From: Rhizobacter sp. Root1221
Lineage (GTDB): Bacteria > Pseudomonadota > Gammaproteobacteria > Burkholderiales > Burkholderiaceae_C
Assembly: GCF_001425785.1 (NCBI RefSeq)
Contig: NZ_LMDI01000037.1
Coordinates: forward strand, 1-48,235
Reading direction: 5' to 3'
DNA: 48,235 bases
Shown here: positions 71 to 6,376 of the stretch, piece after piece
Layout: every line of letters starts with the position of its first letter
How positions within the stretch are numbered: the stretch's first letter is position 1
The notes under the pieces: generated by a model
The model's database searches: none
What the model saw: only the letters and a program-made list of their open reading frames with translations
What the model was told of the DNA's origin: nothing
Position numbers and translations under genes: made by a program

Positions 71-106
71 TTATTCCGGACAGTAGTGGGCTTTCGCCGG
101 GATGAC
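71..106 (+). repeat. Dispersed ~36-bp repeat, copy A
   Basis: The 20 bases TTATTCCGGACAGTAGTGGG recur on the opposite strand at 48125-48160. Over 36 bases the two copies differ at only three positions. The distal half contains a CGCCGGGAT core typical of REP-like palindromes. A degenerate third copy, with CCGGACAG and CCGG blocks in the same order, follows at about 115-152. It could be a REP-type element or an insertion-sequence terminus; no transposase is adjacent. Confidence 0.6.
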
Positions 107-114
107 CCGAGATT

Positions 115-152
115 TTCCCCGGACAGCGATGACCGCTTTTCCCGGCAGCGTC
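115..152 (+). repeat. Degenerate tandem copy of the dispersed repeat
   Basis: The blocks CCGGACAG, GCTTT and CCGG occur in the same order and at nearly the same spacing as in the copy at 71-106. It abuts the stop codon of the minus-strand gene at 151-1677, so it may also shape the 3' end of that transcript. The similarity is partial and was judged by eye. Confidence 0.35.
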
Positions 153-1677
153 AACGCCGCAGCGAGTTGGTGATCGCGCTCTGCACTGATTGCTGCAGGT
201 TCAACGACCGGAGGATGCCGGCGCTGTTCACCGTCGCGTTGACGGTGGTGACGCTCTGGATCTTCTGGTTGTCCAGGGTGTTCTGGATCACCGTGCCCAC
301 CGCCGACCCGATCACCGCACCGGGCAGCACGGTGTTGCCCGCCCCGCTCTGCACCACCGCGAGCGCCCCGCCGTTGAGGGTGGTCACGGCGGCCTGGCCG
401 GCCGAGAGCTTGCTCAGGTCCGCCACGTTCAGGCTCGTCATGGTCACGAGCGTGCCATTGATGTACACCGCGCGCTCGATGCCGAACGACAGCGTGAGGC
501 CGGTGTCGGTCATGAACCCGCCACGCACACCGTCCAGTTGCGACGAGTTCATCGCCACGGTCTCGCCTTGCCACGGCGCACGCGCCGGTTCGGCCTCCTC
601 GGCCTCGAGCACACTCCTCAGGGCAGCCAGGTCGTTCAGCACATGCTCGATCGGCGATACCGCGGCAGGCCGGCTGGCATCGGCCACCGACACCACGGGT
701 TCGGGTTCGGGCACGGCAGCAACCACGGGCTGCTCGGGCGGGGTCTCCTCCACCTCCGGCACACCTCTCAGCGCTGCCAGCGCACTCAACACGCGGTCGG
801 TGGGCGTGGCACCCACGGCGTCGCCAGCGCCGTCGATCCGCGCCTGCACGTAGTCGGCCCGCGGCGTGGCGCGGGCCGGCGCATCCCCATCCGCAACGTC
901 CGCCGGCACGACCAGGTCGATCACGGGCGTGGCGGAAACCTCCCCGCCCACACGCACACCGGCCAGGCTCGCCAACACACGGTCCGCGTGCACGGGCTCG
1001 TCCAGCACGGGCGCCTGCGCCACCTGCACCACGTCCTGGGCCGCGTCGATCGGCACATTCGCCAGAAGCAGGTGGTCCGGGTCCAAGGTGCCGGCCCGGT
1101 CGTCCACCAGCACCGCCACGGTGTCACCCTCGGCAGGTGCAGCCGGTGAGCCAGGAGGGGGCAACCAGTCGAGCGTCCAGGGCGCTGCGTGCAACGGGTC
1201 ATGGTCATCGGGTTCGTCGGCGGGGCGGCTCACCAGGCCCACGAGCACAGGAGCCTCTGTCGGCACATCCGGCGCCGCCGGTTCCGCGGGGTTTTCGGAC
1301 TCGCCCGCGAGCGCGACCAGTGTCACTTCGGTGCGGCCGAATCCCTCGGCCACGGCGGGCGCCTCGGGCACCACGTCGGCAGCCGTATCGACGGCCACCT
1401 CCAACGGCGCGGTGGTCTCGGGCCGGATGAGCTGCAACAACGCGCGGCGCTCCTCGGCCTGCACCGGGCGCGCCACAGACCGGCGCGGAGGTTTCGCGAC
1501 GACTTGCGGGCAGGCCTCGGGCGCAGGCGCCATCGGGGCATCGATTCCGAGCACGCGCATGACACGCGACACGTCGTCGTGCGTGGGGTCGTCTTCGGCC
1601 GAGGCCTGCGTGCCCGCCGACAGGCCAAGGGCCATCAGCGAGAACAGCAGGGCCGGCCGGGAGGGATGGAGTGTCAT
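151..1677 (-). CDS. Exported protein with internal double-glycine-like motif (508 aa)
   Basis: I do not recognise a named family. The protein has a Sec-type signal peptide (about residues 1-26, ending QASA). A long Pro/Ala/Glu/Val-rich, probably disordered region follows. It holds three imperfect repeats of the form DRVLxxLAALRxV at about 231-242, 293-308 and 343-360. At 376-387 it carries MNSSQLDGVRGG, which fits the double-glycine leader pattern (hydrophobic at -12, L at -7, V at -4, GG at -2/-1). The remaining 121 residues are Asn/Gln/Ser/Thr/Val-rich, like beta-rich fibre proteins. It contains a VIQN-x-N-x-IQ-x-T-x-VN stretch shared with the small protein at 2372-2779, and SAGIL shared with the glycine-rich protein at 2870-4603. 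It starts 15 bases after the C39 peptidase stop, so co-transcription is likely. Cleavage by that peptidase is inference. Confidence 0.75.
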   Translation of the reverse strand: MTLHPSRPALLFSLMALGLSAGTQASAEDDPTHDDVSRVMRVLGIDAPMAPAPEACPQVVAKPPRRSVARPVQAEERRALLQLIRPETTAPLEVAVDTAADVVPEAPAVAEGFGRTEVTLVALAGESENPAEPAAPDVPTEAPVLVGLVSRPADEPDDHDPLHAAPWTLDWLPPPGSPAAPAEGDTVAVLVDDRAGTLDPDHLLLANVPIDAAQDVVQVAQAPVLDEPVHADRVLASLAGVRVGGEVSATPVIDLVVPADVADGDAPARATPRADYVQARIDGAGDAVGATPTDRVLSALAALRGVPEVEETPPEQPVVAAVPEPEPVVSVADASRPAAVSPIEHVLNDLAALRSVLEAEEAEPARAPWQGETVAMNSSQLDGVRGGFMTDTGLTLSFGIERAVYINGTLVTMTSLNVADLSKLSAGQAAVTTLNGGALAVVQSGAGNTVLPGAVIGSAVGTVIQNTLDNQKIQSVTTVNATVNSAGILRSLNLQQSVQSAITNSLRR

Positions 1678-1692: not shown

Positions 1693-2367
1693 TCAGAAAT
1701 CCGATGGGCCGAGCTTGGGGATCGTGATGCCGTTCAGCCCTTCGCGAAGGATCCCGTTGCTTGTCGGTGCGCGCGGGACGGTGCGCCAATCGGCGGCCAG
1801 GTTGAAACCCGCGAGCTCCTGCTTGTTCGTGATCACGAACACGATCTGGTTCACCCACCTCGCCTCGAAGGCAGCCCGCGCAAGCGCGCGAGTGCCGCCC
1901 GCCGGGTCGCCGATCAGCACGCGGCCATCGCGCACGCCCTTGATCACGACGAAATGGTTGTAGCCGCTCTCATTGATGAGCGCGATCGCCGGGATGCGCG
2001 CGCTCTCGAGTTTGTCGAGTGGCGCCTCGAACCCGTCGGCCTGGTAGCCGTGGGATTCCAGGAACCGCTTCATGTCCAGCAGCGAGAAGCCCTCGCGCTG
2101 GATCTTCGCTTGATCGCCGTGGCGGTACATCGCCTCGAAGACCGCCTGCTCGTTCACCCGATGCCCGTAGTGGTGGGTGAGCAAGGTTGAAAGCGCGGCG
2201 GAGCCGCAGCTGAAATCGAACTGCTGCCGCTCCGTCGCGAGGTAACGCCCTTCCTTCAGGCTCACCGCGGGCACCGAATAGATGCCGCCCACGTCGACCG
2301 AGCCGGCATGGACCGGACCACCCCACAGGGTCGCCAGCACGAGGAACAGGAAGGTGGGGGACTTCAT
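1693..2367 (-). CDS. Stand-alone periplasmic C39-family cysteine peptidase
   Basis: This 224-residue protein has an N-terminal signal peptide (residues 1-21, ending PVHA). A peptidase C39 core follows: the nucleophile in QQFDFSCGSAAL (C54), the histidine in NHFVVIKG (H138) and the aspartate in GDPAGG (D154), with the usual spacing. C39 domains normally sit at the N-terminus of bacteriocin ABC exporters and cut after double glycine. Here there is no transporter, and the signal peptide points to the periplasm, as in FapD of the Pseudomonas functional-amyloid operon. It lies 4 bases after a gene, and 15 bases before another, whose products both carry double-glycine-like motifs; these are the obvious candidate substrates. 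Family assignment is firm; substrate assignment is inference. Confidence 0.88.
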   Translation of the reverse strand: MKSPTFLFLVLATLWGGPVHAGSVDVGGIYSVPAVSLKEGRYLATERQQFDFSCGSAALSTLLTHHYGHRVNEQAVFEAMYRHGDQAKIQREGFSLLDMKRFLESHGYQADGFEAPLDKLESARIPAIALINESGYNHFVVIKGVRDGRVLIGDPAGGTRALARAAFEARWVNQIVFVITNKQELAGFNLAADWRTVPRAPTSNGILREGLNGITIPKLGPSDF

Positions 2368-2371
2368 GGTG

Positions 2372-2779
2372 TCACTTCAACTGCACGTTGACGATGGTGG
2401 CGTTCTGGATCAGCACGTTGTTGCCGCTGTTCTGGATCACCGTGGGCAGCCCGGCCGAGCCCGCGAGGGCCCCGTCGCTGATCACGTTGCCACCGGTCAC
2501 GACGTTGGTGGCCGAGTTGTCGGCCACGACGCCCTTGAGCTTCATGTCGTTGATCGTCACCGAACCACCGCGCTTGGCCGCCAAGGAGCGGCTGTCGAGC
2601 GGTTTGATCCCGAGGGGATTGGGCGCGACGGCTGGCGTGGCCGCAGCGGGCGCCGCGGCTTCGGCGGGAGGTGGCGTGGATACCGCCACGACCTCGTCGG
2701 CCGCGTGCACCGCCGCGCTCCACGTCAGCGACACGAGTGACGCTGCACCGAGCACGAGTGTGTGCGTTAGGGTCTTCAT
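2372..2779 (-). CDS. Small exported protein with double-glycine-like motif (135 aa)
   Basis: The family is unrecognised. A signal peptide (residues 1-27, ending AVHA-A) is followed by an Ala/Pro/Val linker. LDSRSLAAKRGG follows at 61-72: L at -12, L at -7 and GG at -2/-1, but K rather than a hydrophobic residue at -4. The 63 residues after the motif are rich in Asn, Val, Thr and Gly. They end in a TVIQN...NVLIQNATIVNVQ segment that aligns by eye with the segment after the GG motif of the 508-residue protein. The next gene, the C39 peptidase, starts after 4 bases. A plausible reading is a precursor with a periplasmic propeptide that matures to a roughly 63-residue subunit or nucleator. Function is inferred from context only. 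Confidence 0.75.
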   Translation of the reverse strand: MKTLTHTLVLGAASLVSLTWSAAVHAADEVVAVSTPPPAEAAAPAAATPAVAPNPLGIKPLDSRSLAAKRGGSVTINDMKLKGVVADNSATNVVTGGNVISDGALAGSAGLPTVIQNSGNNVLIQNATIVNVQLK

Positions 2780-2869: not shown

Positions 2870-4603
2870 TCACCTGCCGAGGCTCAGGTTGGCCTGCACA
2901 TTGACGCTCTGCTGCACCAGTGCGCCGATGCCGGTGTTCTGGCTGAGAACCAGAATGCCTGCCGCCGATTGCGCCGTGCCCGTCATGGAGTTGGACATGT
3001 TGAACGTGCCGGCACTGACGGCGTTGGAACCGCCCGCACCACCTGCACCGCCCGCGGCACCCGAGCCTGAGCCGCCGCTGCCGGCGCCACCCGTGCCCGA
3101 AGCACCTGCCCCACCACCACCACCGGCTGCGCCAGCGCCGCCGGCCGCACCGTTGCCTGCCGTCGCGCTGCCATTGGTGGCGCTGGTGGACGCATCGCCG
3201 TTCGAGGCGCTGCCCCCGCCCCCGCCGCCACCGGCCACATTGCTGGCGGTTCCGCCAGCGCCGGCGTTGCTCGTCGTTGCGCCACCGGTTCCGGTCGCCG
3301 CACCGCCGGACGACGTCGCCGTGCCGGTGTTGGAGCCGCTGGACGCCGTGGCTGCACCGCTGGTACCGGCGCCACCGGTGCCTGTGGCCGAGCCCGTGGC
3401 CGCACCACCCGTGCCGGACGAAGAGCCGGTGGCCGCGCCGCCGGTGTTCGCCGCCGTGTTGGTCGAGCCGCTGCTTGCCGTGCCCGTGCCGGTGCCGGCA
3501 CCACCCGTGCCCGTGACGGCACCGCCCGAGCCGGCCCCGCCACCGCTGCTGCCGCCGGCGCCGCCGCCTGCGCCAGGATCCCCTCCACCGGCACCACCGT
3601 TGGAGTTGCCGGCACTGCCACCCACGCCGAGGCTGCCACCGAGTGTGCCGCCCCCTGCGCCCAGGCCACCGCCCAGGGCGCCACTGCCCGACCGCTGGCC
3701 GGACGCGGACAAACCACCAAGCGAGGCATTGGCCGACAGGGCCGATCCACCGGTGTTGCCATCGGTGGCGCTGCCATCGCCGCCACTCGCCGCCGAGCCT
3801 GCAGCCGCGCCGCCGGTCCGCTGTGCGTTGCCTGCGAGGGCTGCCCCGCCCGCGGTGCGGGTGGTGCCGCCAGTCGCGGTGGCATCACCGCCGTTGGCAC
3901 CCCTGGCACCCCGGGCGTCACCGCCGGCGCCGCCGGCGCCGCCCGTGGCGCTGTTCGAGGCGTCGCCAGCGTTCGCGCTGCCGACGCGGGCATTGCCGCC
4001 GTCACCGCCCGAACCGCCGGCGCCGCCACGGCCACCGGCGCCGCCATTGCCGCCACGGCCGTCGCCGCCGACGCCAATGCCGCCATAACCGTCACCGCCC
4101 GCGCCGCCCCGGCCACCATTGGCATTGCCGCTGTTGTTGGCGACATTGCCGAGGCCGGAAACCTGGACGCCGCTGACCGTGCCTGTCAGCTTGCTGATGG
4201 CGATGGCCTTGCTGGAGTTGAACGAGTTCGTGAAGTTCGCGGTGGACGTGCTGCCGTTGTTGGCCGCCGCGGTGCCCCAGCCGGACGCTGCTGCCCGGCC
4301 GCTGTTGTCACGGTTGTCGCCCGTGCTCTTGTTGTTCTTCTGGTCGGAGTTGTTGCTGTTGTCGGTTGGCGTGATCGTGGTGGTGCGGCTGTTCGTCCTG
4401 GTCGACGTCTTCGTCGCGGTGAGCGTGTTGGTCTGCGTGGCCGTCGAGTTCTCATTCGCCGCAGGCCCGAAGCTGCTGGAGGCAGATGCATTCGCCAACT
4501 GATTCACCTTGCTGGAGTCGCTGGTGTTCGTGTTGGTGGGGTTGGCCCAGGCGGAGGCCCCGAAGGCCAGGGCGAGCGCCGACGCCAATAAGGTTCTTGT
4601 CAT
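2870..4603 (-). CDS. Secreted Gly/Ala/Ser/Thr/Asn-rich low-complexity protein (577 aa)
   Basis: The start is set at the ATG at 4603, with GAGGAG upstream and a clean signal peptide (MTRTLLASALALAFGASAWA). An in-frame upstream start at 4774 would bury the signal. The mature protein has three parts. The first is an Asn/Ser/Thr-rich segment (about 21-110). The second is a longer spacer leading into hundreds of residues of Gly/Ala/Ser/Thr/Asn low complexity with GG and GA repeats. The third is a C-terminal segment (about 530-577) rich in Asn, Gln, Ser and Val with SAAGILVLSQNTGIGALVQQ. The composition suits a surface fibre, matrix or amyloid-like protein. The gene lies downstream of a VpsR-like activator and upstream of the C39 peptidase. 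I cannot assign a named family; the structural role is inference. Confidence 0.8.
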   Translation of the reverse strand: MTRTLLASALALAFGASAWANPTNTNTSDSSKVNQLANASASSSFGPAANENSTATQTNTLTATKTSTRTNSRTTTITPTDNSNNSDQKNNKSTGDNRDNSGRAAASGWGTAAANNGSTSTANFTNSFNSSKAIAISKLTGTVSGVQVSGLGNVANNSGNANGGRGGAGGDGYGGIGVGGDGRGGNGGAGGRGGAGGSGGDGGNARVGSANAGDASNSATGGAGGAGGDARGARGANGGDATATGGTTRTAGGAALAGNAQRTGGAAAGSAASGGDGSATDGNTGGSALSANASLGGLSASGQRSGSGALGGGLGAGGGTLGGSLGVGGSAGNSNGGAGGGDPGAGGGAGGSSGGGAGSGGAVTGTGGAGTGTGTASSGSTNTAANTGGAATGSSSGTGGAATGSATGTGGAGTSGAATASSGSNTGTATSSGGAATGTGGATTSNAGAGGTASNVAGGGGGGGSASNGDASTSATNGSATAGNGAAGGAGAAGGGGGAGASGTGGAGSGGSGSGAAGGAGGAGGSNAVSAGTFNMSNSMTGTAQSAAGILVLSQNTGIGALVQQSVNVQANLSLGR

Positions 4604-5038: not shown

Positions 5039-6376
5039 TCAGTTCGTGATGCTGTGCTTGGCCATCAGCCGGTACAGGGTCATGCGCGACACCCCGAGCT
5101 GGCGCGCCGCCTGGGTCACGTTGCGGCCGGCGCTTTGCAGGCTGCAGGAGATCGCGCTGCGTTCCGCCTCGGTCCGGGCGTCGTCCAGGGCCTCGTGCTG
5201 CGGCGCGTCCACGCGTTCCTCGAGCCCGAGGTCGAAGGGCGTGATCAGGCGCCCTTCGCTCATCACCATCGCGCGGCGCACGCGGTTGATGAGCTCGCGC
5301 ACGTTGCCCGGCCAGTCGTGCACTTCCATCGCAGCCACCGCGCGGCGGCTGAACCCCCTGAGTCGGGGGCTCTTGTCGTGGATGAACTTCGTGAAGCAGT
5401 GCTGTGCCAGCAATGCGACATCCGTCTTGCGTTCACGCAGCGGCGGCACACGAAGGGGCAGCACATTGAGGCGATAGAACAGGTCTTCGCGGAACCCGCC
5501 GGCCGACACCGCCTTGTCGAGGTCGACGTTGGTGGCCGCGATCACCCTCACGTCCACCTGGATGCTGCGCGTGGACCCCACGCGGTTGATGGTCATCTCC
5601 TGCAGGAAGCGCAGCAGGTTGACCTGGAGGTCAAGTGACAGGTCGCCGATCTCGTCGAGGAACACCGTGCCGCCGCTGGCGGCTTCGATCAGCCCGCGTT
5701 CGTCGCGCGACGCCCCGGTGAACGAACCCTTCGTGTGGCCGAAGAGTTCCGACTGGATCAGCGACGGGTGGATGGCCCCGCAATTGACGGCCACGAAGGG
5801 CCCGCGGGCGCGTGCAGACTGCTGGTGGATCGCCTGCGCCGCCAGTTCCTTGCCGCTGCCGCTTTCGCCCCGGATCAGCACCGGCGCATCCACCTTCGCG
5901 ACCCGCTTGACTTGCCACAGCAAGTTCTTGATGGGCGCGCTTTCACCGACGATCGGCCCGTCGCCCACCACACCGGACGGCTTGCCCTCGGGCGCCGGCC
6001 TGAGCGCCGCGTGCCCGTACGCGTGCCCCAGCGTCTGCACCAGGTGTTGCGGCTCGACGGGCTGCGTATGGTGATCAAAGAAGTGATCGAGGATCAGCTC
6101 ACGGCAAGCCGGCAACGCCAGGGCCGGCAGGTCGAACACACCGACCCACTCGAGGCTGTCGTGTTGTGCGAGGAACTCATGGAGTTCCTCGCACCCGGCC
6201 TCGTGGACCTCGTGTGTCATCAGCAGGCCCACGCGGAAGTGGTGCTGGTGGAGCAACCGGTGCGCGGACTTCAAGTCCATCGCGGTGTGCACCTCCCAGG
6301 AGGCTGCACGCAGGTACTCGCACAGCCCGGCGTCGGCATGCCTCGGCACGACGCACAGAATCTTTCTTTCGCCCAT
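5039..6376 (-). CDS. VpsR-like sigma-54-dependent transcriptional activator
   Basis: This 445-residue enhancer-binding protein has three regions. The N-terminal receiver-like domain (about 1-125) lacks the usual phosphoacceptor motif. The AAA+ domain carries Walker A GESGSGKE (170-177), the sigma-54 contact loop GSFTGA (217-222) and Walker B GGTVFLDE (235-242). The Fis-type helix-turn-helix is at about 415-445 (QAARQLGVSRMTLYRL). The N-terminal pattern and the C-terminal helix resemble VpsR of Vibrio and BerB-type proteins of Burkholderia, which respond to cyclic di-GMP and switch on biofilm-matrix genes. The loop reads GSFTGA instead of GAFTGA, a tolerated change. The start is supported by GGGGA upstream. 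The gene lies upstream of and co-oriented with the glycine-rich gene, its likely target. The cyclic-di-GMP link is inferred from family resemblance. Confidence 0.88.
   Translation of the reverse strand: MGERKILCVVPRHADAGLCEYLRAASWEVHTAMDLKSAHRLLHQHHFRVGLLMTHEVHEAGCEELHEFLAQHDSLEWVGVFDLPALALPACRELILDHFFDHHTQPVEPQHLVQTLGHAYGHAALRPAPEGKPSGVVGDGPIVGESAPIKNLLWQVKRVAKVDAPVLIRGESGSGKELAAQAIHQQSARARGPFVAVNCGAIHPSLIQSELFGHTKGSFTGASRDERGLIEAASGGTVFLDEIGDLSLDLQVNLLRFLQEMTINRVGSTRSIQVDVRVIAATNVDLDKAVSAGGFREDLFYRLNVLPLRVPPLRERKTDVALLAQHCFTKFIHDKSPRLRGFSRRAVAAMEVHDWPGNVRELINRVRRAMVMSEGRLITPFDLGLEERVDAPQHEALDDARTEAERSAISCSLQSAGRNVTQAARQLGVSRMTLYRLMAKHSITN

Follow-up and report, generated by a model that had tools for sequence, protein, structure and literature searches.

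The gene that follows a standalone C39 peptidase in the Rhizobacter sp. Root1221 stretch analysed here encodes a 508-aa secreted protein with a double-glycine-type motif, and this motif is real and conserved, a variant of the type found in the Fap and Fil systems that is undescribed in the literature searched. In our interpretation, to which we give a probability of about 0.68, it marks a maturation step of the double-glycine type that takes place in the periplasm, depends on Sec and belongs to a sister fibre system of Fap. A sequence-only reading of the same DNA had pointed to a standalone C39 peptidase of the Sec type, with neighbouring proteins that would present a double-glycine-type motif in the periplasm, and this arrangement was supported; likewise, the motif sequences and residue numbers that it gave for the 508-aa and 135-aa proteins were correct when re-derived. 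While its span (1693-2779) does cover the genes for the peptidase and the 135-aa protein, it omits the 508-aa gene, which has the stronger motif. Its core idea is partly supported: the 508-aa protein bears it out, while the case for GG in the 135-aa protein is weak.

Sampling of homologous loci

Among 300 genomes of the order, 46 contain relatives of the peptidase at an E-value of 1e-10 or better, with 59 places listed; after the window's own, the 40 next-best were taken and the 18 weakest left out. Of 398 genomes of the phylum, 39 had matches to the FapD model, at 48 places altogether, and 38 stretches were fetched from these, with G665 and G391 left out and six places already in the sample. 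Together with the window itself and four loci from named genomes, this gave a total of 83 loci, which a redundancy filter (more than 80% peptidase identity) reduced by 16 to 67. The clade lists used for script counts were taken from the peptidase tree. Motif strings for the tree and the triplets of the 135-aa family were read by eye, and the 36/36 and 20/20 values given below were counted by script. A leading GTG or TTG was treated as a start codon, and hence some alignment rows start with M. Signal peptides of the cluster proteins were assigned by eye.

Gene cluster and C39 peptidase

The window, by which we mean the whole stretch of 48,235 nucleotides, is one entire contig (C37) of a 6.9-Mb genome, and the cluster reaches its first bases (Table 1). 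On the minus strand, the order of transcription is sigma-54 activator, 577-aa protein, 135-aa protein, C39 peptidase and 508-aa protein. Near the window's start lies TTTCGCCGGGATGAC (window 92-106), of which the genome has 15 copies (the reversed control has 0), among them copies at most 110 bases from where contigs C26, C37 and C43 begin and one near the end of C40; it is a dispersed repeat, and it probably broke the assembly.

Table 1. Features of the fibre gene cluster, with positions in the window.
Feature	Position	Strand	Basis or remark
508-aa secreted protein in the FapE position: signal peptide, long linker, motif, 121-residue C-terminal domain	151..1677	-	Motif-bearing downstream gene in 36/36 non-redundant clade loci
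Double-glycine-type motif MNSSQLDGVRGG, residues 376-387, then F388	517..552	-	In the 508-aa protein
Degenerate motif-helix copy VLASLAGVR, residues 234-242, 508-aa linker	952..978	-	
Degenerate motif-helix copy VLSALAALR, residues 296-304, 508-aa linker	766..792	-	
Degenerate motif-helix copy VLNDLAALR, residues 346-354, 508-aa linker	616..642	-	
Standalone C39 peptidase, 224 aa, signal peptide, FapD/FilB-like	1693..2367	-	PF03412, NCBIfam models, tree, fold search
Codon of catalytic Cys54, C39 peptidase	2206..2208	-	
Codon of catalytic His138, C39 peptidase	1954..1956	-	
Codon of catalytic Asp154, C39 peptidase	1906..1908	-	
135-aa secreted protein that has one VIQNSGNNVLIQNATIVNV-type stretch; resembles FapB in position and look only	2372..2779	-	
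Motif LDSRSLAAKRGG in the 135-aa protein, residues 61-72; the family does not conserve GG	2564..2599	-	
577-aa glycine-rich secreted protein, probable fibre subunit, without motif	2870..4603	-	
Sigma-54 activator with VpsR-type N-terminal domain, probable cluster regulator	5039..6376	-	PF00158 and PF20161

The peptidase matches PF03412 with 80.2 bits (gathering score 22), and Q48, C54, H138 and D154 are all present. Among 52 aligned rows that include the window, the commonest residue has a share of 0.98, 0.98, 1.0 and 1.0 in the catalytic Gln, Cys, His and Asp columns, respectively. The nearest NCBIfam models are FapD (NF058616, 130 bits) and FilB (NF050078, 126 bits), and since the equivalog cut-offs of these (330 and 475) are not reached, a curated Fap or Fil member was rejected as an identity. 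The genome has seven C39 matches, with that of the window alone in a short open frame (227 aa) and the other six in frames of 729-1102 aa. No ABC domain was found in the five cluster proteins scanned, and the 224-aa peptidase is without fused membrane or ATPase domains; a component of an ABC exporter (PCAT/AMS) was accordingly rejected as well, given that there is no transporter part. An AlphaFold model of the peptidase, made with five sequences, is weak (mean pLDDT 56, about 70 in the core), and although the first match in a Foldseek search with it is a papain-like toxin and not a C39 domain, PCAT1, ComA and the LahT-leader complex (6mpz) were found at an E-value of about 1e-5.

Motif of the 508-aa protein

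With a motif profile made from 25 relatives (window excluded), the motif of the 508-aa protein scores 12.7 and that of the 135-aa protein 9.8, against a best score of 1.6 for the 577-aa protein, in which the sequence-only reading had seen no such motif at the N-terminus. Shuffling within each protein reached the motif score in 3 of 2000 (508-aa) and 1 of 2000 (135-aa) trials. The six frames of the window contain 14 stretches with a score of at least 9, both motifs included, and one spurious stretch reaches 14.2. Motif-like stretches are thus not rare in one genome, and so it is the homologues that must decide.

In the peptidase tree, the window falls in a clade of 36 loci (support 94/94), which we call the GG clade, and this stands beside a Fap clade of 20 loci (97/96), a Fil clade of seven and a group of two, one being L079. 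A gene downstream of the peptidase with a hydrophobic residue at -12, Leu or Met at -7 and Gly-Gly at the end is found in 36 of 36 non-redundant loci of the GG clade, and the motif is likewise present downstream in 20 of 20 non-redundant loci of the Fap clade, where -1 is Arg in 12 and Lys in eight; the script for these counts left -1 free, and in the five loci with multiple matches it took the first. The same regular expression matched 54 of 1235 control ORFs (at least 140 aa, more than 4.5 kb away, any frame), 10 of these with GG and 11 with GR or GK. A first group of 28 loci (the window and L038-L064) has throughout a gene of the 508-aa family after the peptidase, together with the motif, whose last three residues are RGG in 27 and QGG in one.

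The check suggested earlier, whether aligned homologues keep Leu(-7), Val or Ile(-4) and GG amid variable flanks, came out in favour of the motif for the 508-aa family. Of 34 anchored rows from the GG group, 33 have Leu and one has Met at -7, 33 have Arg at -3 and 30 have Phe at +1, and the choice of rows in the first group had fixed L(-7), R/Q(-3), GG and the class of +1; at -12 and -4, which were left free, residues are hydrophobic in 34 of 34 (Ala and Cys counted) and 30 of 34 rows. The preceding flank is variable (positions -30 to -14, entropies of about 2.9-3.9 bits), and +6, +12 and +20 are moderately conserved. The Fap rows, 18 in number, have Asp at -10 in 16 and Glu at -13 in 12. Relatives of the 508-aa protein are often much shorter (e.g. 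172 aa in L038), and the linker in the window's protein is very long; its three degenerate copies of the motif helix (Table 1) are possible extra docking helices. An AlphaFold model of the C-terminal domain (four sequences) had a mean pLDDT of 45 and was set aside.

A profile from 26 first-group motifs, applied to the 39 other loci, found a match scoring at least 10 in 20 of 135 neighbours with a signal peptide. Among 187 distant signal-peptide ORFs there was no such match, and among shuffles the rate was 0.04%. Ten of the 39 loci were without a match of at least 6 (L074, L079, L124, L131, L139, L141, L142, L146, L147 and L148), and some matches with scores of 6-8 in the others look spurious. 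A relaxed search placed the motif in L074, L124 and L131, and in the upstream neighbour for L147, while L079, L141, L142 and L146 have, as judged by eye, a TAG or TGQ form. In L139 and L148, the motif is absent from plausible neighbours; L072 is also without it, and L067 is cut by the contig start.

Linkage extends to the distribution among genomes. The 508-aa family (17 aligned rows, 16 from fetched loci) is present in 25 of the 300 genomes of the order, these being all 24 that have a GG-clade peptidase and G118, where a contig end interrupts the substrate gene. All of the other 22 peptidase-positive genomes in this sample lack the family. Moreover, six genomes (G134, G235, G265, G268, G329 and G383) hold both systems, with Gly at -1 next to the GG-clade peptidase and Arg or Lys next to the Fap-clade one.

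Some individual loci have further features. L128 (G433:C11) has a tandem pair of equal-scoring peptidases, each followed by a substrate with an identical motif. In L073 (G255), which belongs to the Fap clade, there is an extra protein with LDDQVLSRQRGG at -3380 to -2886 from the C39 match. L079 represents a separate C39 lineage, in which several secreted neighbours have motifs of the QMDxVTAG type (PVQLSAAQMDNVTAGG and similar).

Other proteins of the cluster and the pore

In the 135-aa family, L(-7) is kept and G(-2) occurs in 23 of 25 non-redundant members, but only 12 of the 25 keep GG, as the rest have GR, GK, GQ, GA, AG or AR. The claim that this is a conserved GG site was rejected on these counts, and the motif fails by the rule that the sequence-only reading had set for itself, namely conservation of GG among homologues. 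The 577-aa and 135-aa proteins gave no family match, and their repeats resemble those of FapC and FapB by eye only.

A FapF-like pore gene lies inside the fetched stretch in 78 of the 83 loci. Two GG-clade pores scored 151 and 136 bits with the FapF model NF058560, under its cut-off of 700. The sole pore homologue found in the window's genome at an E-value limit of 0.001 is located at G000:C40:37449-38531, near the end of contig C40, and its frame (L156) seems to be without the N-terminal coiled coil of its relatives. Between the contig ends, no overlap of at least 15 bases was found, and the dispersed repeat is near both the start of C37 and the end of C40; a place for the pore gene immediately next to the 508-aa gene was thus not borne out. 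As a separate observation, the pore frames of L038, L044, L046, L047, L049, L126 and L131 have an L-x-x-x-R-G stretch at residues 84-140, which in L131 reads IGTEVLATKRGGQ; this stretch may be a further site for the peptidase.

Comparison with Fap, Fil and leader peptidases of ABC exporters

Like Fap, the window's cluster has a standalone C39 peptidase of the Sec type and, encoded downstream, a secreted protein with the motif in the same position; a FapF-like pore is shared by way of the related loci, 78 of 83 of which have one within the fetched stretch. The cluster differs in having GG at the end of the motif, whereas Fap has Gly followed by Arg or Lys, in having a glycine-rich fibre protein in place of FapC, and in that its peptidase forms part of a separate clade. 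The FapD cut-off is exceeded in eight genomes of the phylum sample, and in the four such loci inspected, the gene after fapD has motifs like LKDQELATLRGR before Tyr, shortly past the signal peptide. The one downstream protein scanned (L112) matches FapE (NF058559) with 302 bits, above the cut-off of 250. With the same model, the 508-aa protein gave no match at an E-value of 0.1, and the L038 relative matched 0 families. An hhalign comparison of FapE with the GG-type proteins covers the motif and about 20 residues only (31 columns, probability 75.8), and since the alignment is confined to this region, it is the motif that these two families have in common. FapA proteins of L112, L114, L117 and L118 also have a look-alike motif, such as ELSDSDFAGVTSG.

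Published work on Fap, taken here from open main-text passages, gives these findings a context. According to such passages of PMC5557850 (Rouse et al., 2017), whole-cell mass spectrometry found N-terminal processing to be complete for FapE and for no other Fap protein, and FapE peptides are missing for about 70 residues, which is more than the motif position explains; FapA peptides are detected throughout, and the FapF linker is called potentially processed. The same passages report that secretion of FapC is abolished by the C38A change in FapD, and describe the target of FapD as unclear and the Fap proteins as being without canonical C39 sequences. A December 2025 review (PMC12822426), in the passages available, names FapE and FapF, the latter in its periplasmic region, as the proteins that FapD is 'thought to process'. 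The motif is unnamed in the open main-text passages of PMC5557850, PMC6173800, PMC3684753, PMC12822426, PMC11787515 and PMC9268375, and no claim to it appears in the titles and opening abstract lines of the literature matches listed.

With Fil, the cluster and its relatives have in common a standalone C39 peptidase, a pore and secreted neighbours with a motif, there of the form hydrophobic-x4-L-x-x-x-T-G-Q. The differences are that Fil has Gln at -1, that its peptidases make up a separate clade, and that the window's peptidase is at 126 bits, below the 475 for FilB. L-x-x-V-T-G-Q stretches are found in FilA-like (DUF6160) neighbours of FilB-type C39 peptidases, and DUF6160, the FilA N-terminus, occurs in 10 of the 398 genomes, eight of which are also FapD-model matches with a FilB-like place. 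The sequence-only reading had offered an uncleaved L-x-x-V-x-G filament pattern as an alternative; such a pattern does occur in these FilA-like proteins, but, as it is the same type of motif, it is not a separate explanation.

The likeness to LahT, PCAT1 and ComA lies in the fold class, the catalytic residues and a leader code at -12, -7, -4, -2 and -1. In LahT147, as described in the part of PMC6363468 available, leader positions -12, -7 and -4 occupy hydrophobic pockets and the GG end a narrow one. In contrast to these enzymes, the window's peptidase is without an ABC transporter part, its partner's motif sits behind a signal peptide and a linker, and the GG clade has Arg at -3 and a mostly aromatic +1. 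As the substrate has a Sec signal peptide, it would already be across the inner membrane.

Proposed maturation step and its alternatives

What was observed are the motif with its conservation, linkage and co-occurrence, and the catalytic residues and fold class of the peptidase; binding, cleavage, the precise bond and any effect on secretion are inferred. On the grounds of the catalytic residues and the fold matches of the peptidase model, we propose Sec export, binding in the groove and cleavage after G387. Here, the peptidase and its partner proteins would be exported by Sec, after which the periplasmic C39 groove would bind the leader-type helix of the 508-aa protein through its hydrophobic residues at -12, -7 and -4. 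A cut after Gly-Gly, at 387/388, would discard the long linker and free a 121-residue domain with Phe at its start, and this in turn may license export of the fibre subunit through the FapF-like outer-membrane pore, by analogy with FapD and the secretion of FapC. In Fap, the same step would involve FapE, with the corresponding motif L-x-x-L/M-R-G-R/K before Tyr or Phe; because FapE carries the motif, it is the predicted substrate of FapD.

For a reading based on cleavage, Arg or Lys at -1 in the Fap clade is a real difficulty. Also against this reading are the weak peptidase model with its papain-like first match, the short profile alignment with FapE, the data in PMC5557850 on FapE and FapA peptides and on the FapF linker, and the search for the 508-aa family, which started from a stretch that includes the motif. 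Residues other than Gly at -1 (20 of 20 in the Fap clade and 12 of 25 in the 135-aa family) misfit the narrow pocket of LahT as it is described in the available part of PMC6363468, and while many columns separate the peptidases of the G and R/K clades, none is tied to a pocket. The cut may fall one residue before the expected bond, or the motif may serve for docking alone. In the latter case, which we hold to be unlikely overall, the C39 protein or the pore would grip the secreted partner at this helix, and the peptidase would have another target, for example the FapF-like pore in its periplasmic part. The strongest case for docking, or for a lax -1 site, comes from the variation of -1 among the partners of one peptidase, as in the 135-aa family (G, R, K, Q or A), and this variation, like the Arg or Lys throughout the Fap clade, suits binding over cutting. 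Consistent with docking are also the seven pore frames whose L-x-x-x-R-G stretch lies where the linker ahead of the barrel does, and the presumption in the cited 2025 review passages (PMC12822426) that FapD acts on both FapE and periplasmic FapF. However, most of the pore frames inspected have no such stretch, the catalytic Cys, His and Asp are conserved in the peptidase, and GG is invariant in all 36 proteins of the GG clade; moreover, the passages of PMC5557850 on the C38A change and on the missing N-terminal peptides of FapE favour processing.

Two further explanations appear weaker. The motif might have a role in how proteins of the FapE-like family fold or assemble and be connected to the peptidase by a shared operon only, and its place at the start of a conserved domain, with a conserved stretch after it, would fit this. 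We regard it as quite improbable, however, considering that similar patterns are found in other neighbours of such peptidases (the 135-aa family, FilA/DUF6160 proteins with L-x-x-V-T-G-Q and the QMDxVTAG proteins), and that the motif agrees position by position with the leader code in the part of PMC6363468 available. Coincidence in a GC-rich genome is scarcely credible: while the window's 14 stretches at or above 9, the two motifs among them, and the distant ORFs that match the loose expression do speak for it, the match in 56 of 56 downstream genes, as against 54 of 1235 control ORFs, does not. For the motif of the 508-aa protein, chance is refuted by its conservation in homologues; the GG of the 135-aa protein, as such, could conceivably have a chance origin. 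Our preferred reading is a periplasmic double-glycine maturation step in the GG clade.

Implications for fibre systems

A broader generalization, for which we see about even odds, is that all standalone C39 peptidases which fibre systems export by Sec, in Fap and Fil as in the GG clade, constitute one class of periplasmic leader-processing enzymes. In such a class, the code of the ABC exporters would have moved behind a signal peptide and be read after Sec export, with -1 changed by lineage (G, R/K or Q) and with several secreted substrates per genome, and FapE would be the FapD substrate at L-x-x-L/M-R-G-R/K. It is the textbook double-glycine motif at the matching place in the GG clade that makes the diverged motif of FapE recognisable. 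FapD is essential for secretion of the Fap amyloid. For FapE and for the GG clade, the analysis offers a residue-level prediction of the cut site, which may extend to FilA-type proteins. If true, this would mean that double-glycine recognition operates after Sec export, outside any ABC transporter.
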